Below, piece by piece: positions 60,590 through 64,000 of a DNA stretch of 64,000 nucleotides (its first letter is position 1; every line of letters begins with the position of its first letter). Source of the DNA: Bacteroidetes bacterium HLUCCA01 (GTDB lineage: Bacteria; Bacteroidota; Rhodothermia; Balneolales; HLUCCA01); contig LIHN01000018.1 in the NCBI GenBank assembly GCA_001314545.1, positions 124,001 through 188,000 on the forward strand, given 5' to 3'. Both the position numbers and the translations under genes were made by a program. The notes under the pieces were generated by a model. It saw only the letters and a list, made by a program, of their open reading frames with translations, had not been told where the DNA came from and did not search any database.

Positions 60590-61555
60590 TTACACCACGT
60601 TGCTTTGACCCAGCGGCAACGACTCAATCACATTGATAGCCGGCGAGGGATCACTCATAATGTAGAAATGCAGACCGGGAACCCCATGATCAAGCAATTC
60701 CAGGCATTGCTTACGTGCCCACTCCTGCCCGATACTGCTTGTACTTTCCGGATCAGCCGCGACCGCATCGCTCAGGTCGCAGGGAATGGAAAGATGAAAT
60801 GCCTTCGGCAGGGTTACCAGGTGGTTCGCCCGGGTGAGTACCTTCAGACCGGGAATGATCGGGATGGTGATACCCTCGGCCCGGCATTTATCCACAAATT
60901 CGAAGAAGACCTGGTTGTCAAAAAACATCTGCGTAACGATGTAGTCGGCCCCGGCTGCCACCTTATCCTTGAGTCTTTTAATATCCCAGACCAGATTCGG
61001 CGCTTCGTTATGCTTCTCGGGATAGCCTCCCACACCCACACAAAAATCGGTGTGACTGGCCTCCATGAGATCTTCCAGATAGATGCCCTTGTTCATATCC
61101 TTTACCTGGCGAACCAGATCGCTGGCATAGGTATTGACCGCCCGGTCCTTATGATGGGGCTTGGGAGCGCCGTGGTCGTCACCGCGAACCGCCAGTACAT
61201 TATCGATACCCAGATAATGCAGCTCGATGAGGGCATCCTCGGTTTCTTCCTTGGTAAATCCTTTACAGATAAGATGCGGCACGGGATCTACGTTGTAGCG
61301 GTGTTTGATGGCGGCACACAGTCCGATGGTGCCCGGGCGTTTGCGCTTGACCCGGCGTTTCATGGTACCGTTGCCCAGATCGATGTACTCGGCTTCGGCA
61401 GCATGGGAGGTAATATCGATGAAGGGCGGATTGAATTTCTTGACCCGGTCGAGTGCATCAAATACGTTCTGGATGCTGGCGCCCCGGCGTGGTGGAATAA
61501 TTTCGAAAGAAATGAGCGGCTCGGTCGCGCGATCGTAATGTTCGGTAACTTTCAT
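60590..61555 (-). CDS. metF: 5,10-methylenetetrahydrofolate reductase
   Basis: The 321-residue flavoenzyme makes 5-methyltetrahydrofolate, the methyl donor for methionine synthesis. Motifs include ISFEIIPPRRG (catalytic Glu), FIDITSHAAEAEYI, YLGIDNVLAVRGDDHG, and GADYIVTQMFFDNQVFFEFV, with PIIPGLKVLTRANHLVTLPK. The ATG at 61555 (MKVTEHYDRA) is preferred; an in-frame TTG at 61627 would add 24 unconserved residues. No SAM riboswitch was seen upstream, although one occurs 2 kb away before another gene. Confidence 0.94.
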   Translation of the reverse strand: MKVTEHYDRATEPLISFEIIPPRRGASIQNVFDALDRVKKFNPPFIDITSHAAEAEYIDLGNGTMKRRVKRKRPGTIGLCAAIKHRYNVDPVPHLICKGFTKEETEDALIELHYLGIDNVLAVRGDDHGAPKPHHKDRAVNTYASDLVRQVKDMNKGIYLEDLMEASHTDFCVGVGGYPEKHNEAPNLVWDIKRLKDKVAAGADYIVTQMFFDNQVFFEFVDKCRAEGITIPIIPGLKVLTRANHLVTLPKAFHLSIPCDLSDAVAADPESTSSIGQEWARKQCLELLDHGVPGLHFYIMSDPSPAINVIESLPLGQSNVV

Positions 61556-61701
61556 CGGCGGAAATGTGTTGTAGGGTAGATGGAAACTCAGACGGGTTAT
61601 GGGTATACTTGGCTTCCCGGCAGGCAAACGCCGGTGAAACCAACAAATGACCTTGCCAAAGCATCCCTAACTGAATAATCTACTAAAAATTTCGGGAAAT
61701 T

Positions 61702-62424
61702 ATGGAACTGTTAGTCAATATTGACCATATCGCGACCTTACGGAATGCACGCGGCGAGGGTGTGCCGGATCCGGTAGAGGCGGCCCGGATATGCGAAGAC
61801 AACGGAGCGGCCGGCATCGTGTTTCACCTGCGTGAAGACCGAAGACACATCCGTGATCATGACGTATATGCACTTCGGGAACACATCCGCGGTACCGTTG
61901 ATTTTGAAATGGCCGCCACCGATGAAATGCTGGGAATCTGCGAGAAAATTCGCCCGCATATTTGTACCCTGGTCCCGGAGAGCCGCCAGGAGCTCACTAC
62001 CGAGGGCGGACTGAACATGCGGATGATTTTTGAGGATTACCGTTCCCGCGTGATACCGCGACTGCTGGATACCGGTACTATAATCAGTCTTTTTGTAGAC
62101 CCCAATCCCGACGACATACAACGTTGCAGGGAGCTGGGCGTCCAGGCCATCGAGCTGCATACCGGAATGTATGCCAACGCCCGGAAAGCTTCGGTGGTGG
62201 AACATGAGCTTGAACGTCTGCGCGAAGCCGCTGAACTGGCGCACAGCCTTGGACTCATCGTGAATGCGGGCCACGGGCTTAACTTTACCAATACCACACC
62301 CTTCATCCGGGCGGTACCGCATCTGGCCGACATCAGTATCGGTCACGCGCTGGTGACCCATGCCGTGTTTCACGGACTGGCAACTTCGGTGCGCACCATG
62401 GCCGATATCATCAGCAAAGGTTAA
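61702..62424 (+). CDS. pdxJ: Pyridoxine 5'-phosphate synthase
   Basis: The 240-residue TIM-barrel enzyme condenses 1-deoxyxylulose 5-phosphate with aminoacetone phosphate to form pyridoxine phosphate. Characteristic segments are LLVNIDHIATLRNARG, DNGAAGIVFHLREDRRHI, FEMAATDEML, TLVPESRQELTTEGGL, AIELHTGMYANA and VNAGHGLNFTNT. The length is typical. It is 12 bases upstream of era. Confidence 0.96.
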   Translation: MELLVNIDHIATLRNARGEGVPDPVEAARICEDNGAAGIVFHLREDRRHIRDHDVYALREHIRGTVDFEMAATDEMLGICEKIRPHICTLVPESRQELTTEGGLNMRMIFEDYRSRVIPRLLDTGTIISLFVDPNPDDIQRCRELGVQAIELHTGMYANARKASVVEHELERLREAAELAHSLGLIVNAGHGLNFTNTTPFIRAVPHLADISIGHALVTHAVFHGLATSVRTMADIISKG

Positions 62425-62436
62425 CGGGTAAGGCTC

Positions 62437-63363
62437 ATGGATTTCATTGAACCCCCAAACGACGAGCTCAACGATTCGCCTGAGTTTTCGCCCGGGCACC
62501 GGGCGGGTTTCGTAGCGATTATTGGTCGACCCAACGCGGGAAAGTCCACCCTTTTGAACGCCATCCTGGAGTTCAAGCTGGCCATCGCCACGCACAAGGC
62601 ACAGACTACCCGCCATCAGATACTGGGTATCCTCAGCGAAGCGGCCCACCAGATGGTCTTTCTGGATACACCGGGAATCATCGAACCCGAATACAAGCTT
62701 CAGGAAGCCATGATGCAGGCGGTGGCGCGGTCGACCAAGGACGCTGATGTGCTGTTGCATCTGGTAGATGCTACCCGTCCGGCGGATGAAGAACGGGTCT
62801 GGAAATACATGCATGCTTCAGGAAAACCTGCTGTGCTGGTGATCAATAAAGTGGATGCGGCGGGCGATGAGGTCGTTGATGCGATTAAGGCGGCATGCAC
62901 CGCAGCATTTGCCTACCGTGAAATTGCAGCGATTTCTGCTGCCCGTGGTACCGGACTTGATGAGCTCAAAATGGCTCTGGGCCGACAATTACCGCTAAGT
63001 CCGCCGCTGTACCCGCCCGATCAGCTCAGCGAACACCCGGTCCGGTTCTTTGTATCGGAGCTCATACGGGAGCAAATATTCCTGCAGTACGCCCAGGAGA
63101 TACCTTACTCATGCACGGTCACCATTTCTTCATTCAAAGAGGAAGAAAAAATGGATCACATCCACGCCGAAATTATCGTGAACCGGGACTCACAGAAGGG
63201 AATTCTGATTGGTAAAGGCGGGATGAAACTAAAAAAATTGGGCACAAAGGCCCGCGAGCAAATCGAGCAGCTGACCGGCAGGAAGGCCAATCTTCAGCTA
63301 TTCGTAAAAGTCAGGGAAAAGTGGCGCGATAAAGACAGCTACCTGCGCGGATACGGGTACTGA
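62437..63363 (+). CDS. era: GTPase Era
   Basis: The 308-residue GTPase assists 16S rRNA processing and 30S assembly. It has P-loop GRPNAGKSTLLNAIL, the switch KAQTTRHQILGI, G3 DTPGIIEPE, G4 NKVD, G5 SAARGTG, and a C-terminal KH domain with IIVNRDSQKGILIGKGGMKLKKLGTKAREQIEQL. The N-terminus is about 20 residues longer than E. coli Era. It follows pdxJ directly. Confidence 0.96.
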   Translation: MDFIEPPNDELNDSPEFSPGHRAGFVAIIGRPNAGKSTLLNAILEFKLAIATHKAQTTRHQILGILSEAAHQMVFLDTPGIIEPEYKLQEAMMQAVARSTKDADVLLHLVDATRPADEERVWKYMHASGKPAVLVINKVDAAGDEVVDAIKAACTAAFAYREIAAISAARGTGLDELKMALGRQLPLSPPLYPPDQLSEHPVRFFVSELIREQIFLQYAQEIPYSCTVTISSFKEEEKMDHIHAEIIVNRDSQKGILIGKGGMKLKKLGTKAREQIEQLTGRKANLQLFVKVREKWRDKDSYLRGYGY

Positions 63364-63526: not shown

Positions 63527-63560
63527 TTTTGTGCATGGTTTGAAAAAGTCCTTATACTTG
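63527..63560 (+). promoter_or_regulatory. Promoter of the Met/Cys leader
   Basis: TTTTG (63527-63531), 21 bases, TATACTTG (63553-63560) fits the Bacteroidetes consensus with one mismatch. The start would be at or within a few bases of the leader ATG at 63566, so the leader mRNA may be leaderless. Confidence 0.55.
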
Positions 63561-63565
63561 TAACC

Positions 63566-63625
63566 ATGTCAAAACAACAAAACACATCCATCGCCAAGCG
63601 AAGCTGTATGATGCTCTGTAGCTAA
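63566..63625 (+). CDS. Met/Cys leader peptide (attenuator)
   Basis: A 19-codon frame, MSKQQNTSIAKRSCMMLCS, ends TAA at 63623-63625. Near its end are Cys-Met-Met-Leu-Cys-Ser. The stop codon is one base before a 9-base segment that pairs with the 5' arm of the terminator. This is the classical layout of a transcription attenuator: a ribosome stalled at TGT ATG ATG leaves the antiterminator free, and one that reaches the stop masks it. The regulated amino acid should be methionine and/or cysteine. Confidence 0.7.
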   Translation: MSKQQNTSIAKRSCMMLCS

Positions 63626-63626
63626 C

Positions 63627-63687
63627 AGGGCTTTTGAAGTTTATGACATAATCAAAAAAGCCCTCCATTTCCTGCAGGGCTTTTTTT
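63627..63687 (+). terminator. Attenuator: competing antiterminator and terminator
   Basis: Segment A AGGGCTTTT (63627-63635) is a perfect complement of AAAAGCCCT (63656-63664) in segment B. Segment B (AAAAAAGCCCT, 63654-63664) is also complementary to segment C AGGGCTTTTTT (63676-63686). B:C with the T run to 63687 is an intrinsic terminator; A:B excludes it. Confidence 0.8.
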
Positions 63688-63712
63688 GTACCATGTTCTT
63701 TTGTTACTGGAA

Positions 63713-63846
63713 AGCTCTTATCAAGAAAGGCGGAGGGATCAGGCCCTGTGATGCCTTAGCAACCGCCCCGGTTTAACCGCCGGGGGTCAGGTGCTAAATC
63801 CTGCCCGGCTGGTGCATGCACTGGCTTGGGGAAGATGAGAGAAGCT
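63713..63846 (+). ncRNA. SAM-I (S-box) riboswitch
   Basis: The RNA shows the S-box core: CTTATCAAGAAAGGCGGAGG, GGCCCTGTGATGCCTTAGCA followed by ACC, the P3 hairpin, GGTGCTAAATCCTGC and GATGAGAG. Stem P1 pairs CTCTTATC (63715-63722) with GATGAGAG (63834-63841). The conserved kink-turn and SAM pocket segments are all present. It senses SAM and controls the terminator downstream. Confidence 0.93.
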
Positions 63847-63865
63847 GGATTTTATCTGTTAAAGT

Positions 63866-63908
63866 AAAAGCCTCTTCTGTCATCGTAAAAACGGAAGAGG
63901 CTTTTTTT
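63866..63908 (+). terminator. Riboswitch-controlled terminator
   Basis: AAAAGCCTCTTCTGT pairs with ACGGAAGAGGCTTTT and ends in seven T residues. The 5' arm (CTCTTCTGTCATC) partly matches the 3' strand of P1 (GATGAGAG), so P1 disruption could form an antiterminator when SAM is scarce. Confidence 0.88.
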
Positions 63909-63938
63909 ATTCAAGCAATTGTCAACCAAAAACAACCG

Positions 63939-64000
63939 ATGAAATCGACGTTCAATACCTGGTACGAGGAAAAGATGTACGCCACCGACGAGCTGGCCGC
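63939..64000 (+). CDS. Start of a SAM-regulated gene, cut by window edge
   Basis: An ATG at 63939, 31 bases after the riboswitch terminator, opens a frame that runs to the edge (MKSTFNTWYEEKMYATDELA). Only about 20 residues are visible and I cannot identify them. The position after a SAM riboswitch and a Met/Cys attenuator implies methionine or sulfur-amino-acid metabolism or transport. Confidence 0.6.
   Translation, partial: MKSTFNTWYEEKMYATDELA

Follow-up and report, generated by a model that had tools for sequence, protein, structure and literature searches.

The window, that is, the whole stretch of 64,000 nucleotides of Bacteroidetes bacterium HLUCCA01 DNA analysed here, carries before a metY operon what we consider, with a probability of roughly 0.86, to be a two-stage transcription gate within one mRNA leader: an attenuator that would respond to Cys and Met charging, followed by a SAM-I OFF switch. 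The window comes from a 3.37-Mb MAG and bears this leader near its 3' end, in a region of 575 nt between era (62437-63363) and the gene starting at 63939. The single leader comprises a promoter-like pair, a leader ORF, an attenuator, a boxA-like motif, a SAM-I riboswitch and a second terminator. A sequence-only reading had placed two termination devices in series before one gene, and both terminators, the ORF and an aptamer matching RF00162 were indeed recovered. The features, all on the plus strand, are as follows.

63529..63534, +, -35-like element TTGTGC, as read from the sequence
63553..63558, +, -10-like element TATACT, after a spacer of 18 nt following TTGTGC
63566..63625, +, leader peptide ORF of 19 aa, MSKQQNTSIAKRSCMMLCS (ending in SCMMLCS before the stop), with ATG at 63566 and TAA ending at 63625
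63605..63619, +, putative control codons Cys-Met-Met-Leu-Cys (TGT ATG ATG CTC TGT), as read from the sequence
63627..63635, +, segment 2 (AGGGCUUUU), antiterminator strand, starting one nt past the leader stop codon
63654..63689, +, intrinsic terminator 1, formed of segments 3 and 4 (hairpin 63654-63686) and a U-run
63695..63701, +, GTTCTTT, a boxA-like motif separating the devices
63715..63841, +, SAM-I (S box) riboswitch aptamer (RF00162, 80.4 bits, E 1.5e-18)
63834..63884, +, riboswitch antiterminator, GAUGA.AGAAG (63834-63844) with CUUCU.UCAUC (63874-63884), -17.1 kcal/mol
63866..63908, +, intrinsic terminator 2 of the expression platform, hairpin 63866-63905 and U-run, -20.8 kcal/mol
63939..64000 in the window, running on to 64418, +, first operon gene, encoding a CoA_binding_2 protein

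Extending the sequence past the window, as had been proposed in order to identify the gene, placed this CoA_binding_2 protein at the head of an operon that continues with metY (O-acetylhomoserine sulfhydrylase), an OsmC-like gene, metX and a bifunctional aspartokinase/homoserine dehydrogenase (AK-HSD), and such a metY-metX-AK/HSD content fits a control by sulfur amino acids. A metF-like methylenetetrahydrofolate reductase gene (60593-61627, minus strand) lies with pdxJ (61702-62421, plus strand) upstream of the metY leader, at 1.5-3 kb, so that Met and PLP genes cluster at this end of the window.

The conservation of the leader was assessed by running the Rfam SAM-I model over 128 genomes of the order, which is Balneolales according to its named members (Balneola, Rhodohalobacter and Balneolaceae MAGs), and by reading the flanks of the 133 loci obtained. 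The 110 SAM riboswitches located before metY or its CoA-binding neighbour are referred to as metY loci. In this survey of other SAM riboswitches, of a kind suggested by the sequence-only reading, a leader ORF with at least 4 Cys/Met in ten residues precedes the aptamer in 99 of the 110 metY loci and in 30 of 35 genera. With a score of at least 5 Cys+Met per 10-residue window, a leader was found at 96 of the 133 SAM loci versus 3 of 1330 dinucleotide shuffles of the upstream regions. The enrichment is confined to the reading frame: over the last 15 codons, the Cys+Met share is 45% in frame and 16% and 2% in the other frames. The short ORF is thus rich, near its end, in codons for the amino acids of the pathway, as in known leader-peptide attenuators; usual peptide ends in the order are CCMCMCM, MMCMCC and CCMSCC, and the same-genus peptide (loci L005/L190) is MSQQQNISIAKRSCMMLCN; a same-genus genome is G001 (JAFIEZ010000010.1).

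The leader ORF is followed by an attenuator spanning 63627-63686, in which a 2:3 antiterminator is opposed to the 3:4 terminator. Segment 2 pairs with segment 3 (63656-63664) at -12.3 kcal/mol, and terminator 1 folds at about -14 kcal/mol (-13.8, z -4.2), no shuffle folding equally well. The 5' arm of the terminator can therefore pair with a segment that would be covered by a ribosome at the stop codon. Neither terminator was found by a generic terminator scan of the window, probably because of the loop and tail limits of the scan. A test of terminator and antiterminator was feasible in 95 of the 99 metY loci with a leader ORF. All 95 have a terminator 1 and, close to the leader stop (starting at -15 to +3 nt relative to it), a segment complementary to its 5' arm, and the antiterminator duplex was better than in shuffles (p<=0.05) in 89 of them. 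The arms and segments form 82 distinct pairs and covary, with changes on both pairing sides such as AACCC/GGGTT in L008, L046 and L065 or GGCTCTCT/AGAGAGCC in L021.

When the nascent RNA was folded only through segment 3, with an assumed ribosome footprint of 15 nt beyond the P site (a general figure), the antiterminator (-12.3) was obtained with the ribosome at the first Cys codon and no competing structure (-0.2) with the ribosome at the stop codon; without a ribosome, a long-range structure hid segment 2. At equilibrium, the full window RNA favoured terminator 1 in every ribosome state tested, and the model consequently depends on the co-transcriptional order of events. Classical attenuators likewise depend on the order of synthesis. 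A 1:2 protector hairpin is present in the fold of the window, and its significance in only 28 of the 95 loci leaves the no-translation state uncertain and does not support a protector conserved across loci; a stem joining the leader start with the region before the terminator was significant in only 24 of 94 loci.

The second device is a SAM-I riboswitch, the only one in the genome, whose match to RF00162 exceeds the gathering score of 44.4 and covers positions 1-108 of the 108 of the model. In the predicted fold, the P1 3' strand can pair alternatively with the terminator arm, in the manner of a transcriptional OFF platform. Terminator 2 is present in 92 of the 95 loci; only 45 of these 92 have a riboswitch antiterminator that did better than shuffles, as judged with a crude P1 window. 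No T box was found among the Rfam matches at E<=1 in the part of the window between 60000 and 64000, which were limited to SAM and Thr_leader, and a T box upstream of the SAM switch was rejected on this ground. A threonine leader was also rejected, the Thr_leader match being below threshold (23 versus 55 bits), the codons being Cys/Met and the operon being that of metY.

The distribution of the leader is specific. In the genomes of the order with two SAM riboswitches, the second one precedes metH, and none of these 22 metH-linked riboswitches carries the leader. The metH assignment relies on an NCBIfam metH N-terminal match for L007 and, for the others, on the length (ORFs of about 335 aa) and position. 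At these loci (e.g. L007), the aptamer starts some 45 nt ahead of the gene, and the sequence directly upstream of it shows by eye promoter-like boxes that are rich in AT (e.g. TATCTTTG). Similarly, no comparable leader was found at the 54 SAM loci of outgroups from other families of the same class, even though most of them precede metY; two of these (L136 and L176) have ORFs that score 4 but stop 169 and 191 nt short of the aptamer, with no terminator, and they were left out of the count. Within the order, a qualifying leader is missing in 11 of the 110 metY loci, including all five of genus g22, and four loci of genus g25 have the leader ORF without terminator 1. In these g25 loci (L023, L044, L063 and L080), a long inverted repeat (e.g. 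AATTATCTCACA...TGTGAGATAATT) encloses the Cys/Met ORF and extends as far as the boxA, and they likely use a different control mode. The parts of the tandem, their pairing, their conservation and their gene partners are in this way established by sequence comparison.

Some Bacteroidota outside the order carry a Met/Cys leader ahead of metY but no SAM riboswitch at the Rfam gathering threshold (L215, L218, L220, L230, L236, L238 and L253), which rules out a SAM switch before every leader-bearing metY and indicates that the order combines two devices known separately. Six of these SAM-less leaders were tested: a terminator together with a significant antiterminator was found in two (L215 and L220), the result was borderline in three, and the remaining one lacks a terminator. 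Two successive Met/Cys leader ORFs are seen in L253 and in L215 (about 130-420 nt before metY), and in L215 each ORF is followed by its own U-tailed hairpin, i.e. a tandem of leader-peptide attenuators. The simplest history would be that an S box was already present in the ancestor of the order when a leader attenuator was placed ahead of it, and that g22 and a few others subsequently lost the attenuator.

These comparisons bear on whether the upstream elements belong to the regulation of the operon at all. The SAM riboswitch could regulate alone, with an ORF that is there by accident and an upstream hairpin that terminates era or a small RNA: era ends 203 nt upstream of the ORF, and chance often produces short ORFs as well as hairpins with a U-tail. 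Against this, the ORF, the hairpin and the complementary segment recur in 95 loci, the Cys/Met content is far above that of shuffles and only in frame, a promoter-like pair precedes the ORF in 94 of 95 loci and the unit is missing before the metH SAM switches. Terminator 1 as the era terminator is rejected because the hairpin is conserved together with the ORF, and this explanation, already disfavoured, is in our opinion very improbable. Alternatively, both devices could be real but separate, if another promoter located downstream of terminator 1 and upstream of the aptamer gave a transcript under SAM control only, without a strict two-input gate; dual promoters have been reported for an adenine/T box tandem (PMC9481103). 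The sequence-only reading had itself stated that transcription starting between the devices would refute their presence on one RNA. A TTGN3-N15..20-TAN3T pair is found ahead of the leader codons in 94 of 95 loci, versus 24% in shuffles, whereas the gap contains the loose TTGN3...TAN3T pattern in a raw count of only 18 loci out of 95. Moreover, the gap holds the conserved boxA, while promoter-like boxes (seen by eye) occupy that place at the leaderless metH SAM loci. The distribution of promoter-like pairs consequently favours a single RNA, and we regard separate transcripts as unlikely. The most frequent distance of the -10 box from the start codon is 7 nt (42 of 95 loci), so that the predicted transcript has little or no sequence ahead of the leader ORF, starting at the leader ATG or within 1-2 nt of it.

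The boxA-like motif between the devices, which the sequence-only reading had overlooked, is new here. GTTCTTT is present upstream of the aptamer in 104 of 111 metY loci, 14-22 nt before it in nearly all of them, and the leading G occurs in every match although the query was TTCTTT only. It was found at that place in none of the 22 metH loci, where a single TTCTTT match lies at -45, and it is also present where the leader ORF is missing, as in g22. As the MAG of the window has no 16S, the rrn boxA was taken from relatives: the same 7-mer occurs in the rrn leaders or spacers of the five members of the order examined (G006, G012, G044, G096 and G109; e.g. GTTCTTTGACATGGTGAAG). A boxA-like TTCTTT also precedes SAM aptamers of the class outgroups f6 and f19 (L145, L150, L152, L154, L156 and L176), and in f19 it is located in the loop of a small hairpin (CTTGTTCTTTTCAAG). 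The boxA consensus GYTCTTTAANA was described for gamma-proteobacteria (PMC5725501). The rrn boxA binds NusB-S10 and blocks Rho, as established for E. coli (PMC4807359, PMC5725501), whereas the boxA in the 5' UTR of suhB, a position similar to that seen here, can promote Rho termination (PMC5725501). The GTTCTTT core is thus identical to that of rrn operons of the same order but, in contrast to the rrn and suhB cases, it has an attenuator on one side and a riboswitch on the other and precedes a biosynthetic operon. It probably protects the untranslated riboswitch leader from Rho; this is the least certain step of our proposal, and since the suhB boxA acts in the opposite way, the effect here could have either sign.

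The suhB case also raises the possibility that the uORF works by Rho-dependent termination (as tnaC) or by boxA/Nus (as suhB) and not by a 2:3/3:4 switch, with g25 as the model. In nearly all loci the ORF is closely followed by a boxA, and the g25 loci have an ORF inside a long hairpin without a U-tailed terminator 1. An intrinsic terminator and a matching antiterminator are nevertheless kept in 95 loci, which makes this mode of action improbable. Tentatively, and with slightly less than even odds, a three-part relay can be envisaged in which the attenuator decides, the rrn-type boxA loads a Nus antitermination complex and the modified polymerase reads a Rho-protected SAM riboswitch with an altered response at terminator 2. 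If so, boxA-NusB would be a conserved partner of a riboswitch, of which we found no description.

For the two-stage gate that we favour, stalling, ligand response and the role of boxA are what we infer from these arrangements, and its operation would be as follows. The near-leaderless ORF of 19 codons would be translated as soon as it is made. With sufficient Cys-tRNA and Met-tRNA, the ribosome would reach the stop codon and cover segment 2, and terminator 1 would form; a stall at the Cys or Met codons would let segment 2 pair with segment 3 before segment 4 exists, leading to read-through. Past terminator 1, the transcribed boxA would probably load NusB-S10 and shield the untranslated riboswitch leader from Rho. 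In the second stage, SAM would stabilise P1 and release the 5' arm of terminator 2, and transcription would stop, whereas in its absence the P1 3' strand would pair with this arm. Full transcription of metY-metX-AK/HSD would thus require low SAM together with low charging of the tRNAs for Cys or Met. The two-input gate of the sequence-only reading stands in that both devices form one conserved unit (30 of 35 genera); its logic has to be amended, the predicted ON state requiring low SAM together with a shortage of Cys or of Met, since stalling at one type of codon would be enough.

Regarding the two amino acids, the genome of the window has only a weak match to CysE (serine acetyltransferase, 49 bits) and a full-length match to cystathionine beta-synthase (499 bits) just below the cut-off, whereas a CysE-like protein is matched clearly in G044 and G096, at about 165 bits, which falls short of the curated cut-off (210). 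The MetY of this organism may feed both Met and Cys, which would explain why the leader reads both.

The closest known systems are the T box-Met/SAM-I tandems of Bacillota, with nine examples, two having the T box first and seven the SAM-I first (PMC9481103). They also associate a sensor of tRNA charging with a SAM-I OFF switch in one leader, respond to low charging and low SAM and, in the published SAM-I/T box cases, stand before metX/metY as here (PMC9481103), so that the idea of a gate on charged tRNA and SAM is not new. However, their sensor is a T box RNA that binds uncharged tRNA-Met, whereas here it is a translated leader peptide with predicted stalling and with both Cys and Met codons; the present tandem occurs in about 100 species and has a boxA between its devices. 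The SAM-I/AdoCbl tandem (NOR gate) similarly places two independent OFF devices, one of them SAM-I, in series before one gene (PMC9481103), but both of its sensors are metabolite riboswitches. The trp, his and thr leaders share the short ORF with control codons and the antiterminator/terminator switch, and the cysS leader uORFC-8-2 of Rhodobacterales shares the Cys codons (PMC8632094); the leader described here differs from all of these by its mixed Cys and Met codons, its predicted near-leaderless ORF and the riboswitch that follows. The sequence-only reading was not aware of any combination of a leader peptide with an S box and, apart from the T box-Met/SAM-I analogue already reported (PMC9481103), which that reading had not mentioned, we found in the open-licence literature no description of a leader-peptide/SAM-I tandem, of its Cys input, of its spread over 30 genera or of its boxA.

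We therefore suggest that in about 100 species one RNA would combine a metabolite riboswitch with a sensor that reads Cys/Met charging through translation, and that the logic of the Bacillota T box-Met/SAM-I tandems has apparently been reached with different parts. The nearly invariant boxA raises the question of whether a Nus antitermination complex keeps Rho off long untranslated riboswitch leaders. Finally, these data add a Cys/Met leader attenuator for metY that matches no Rfam family and is also found without a SAM switch in other Bacteroidota, and the order thereby shows how two regulators became stacked.
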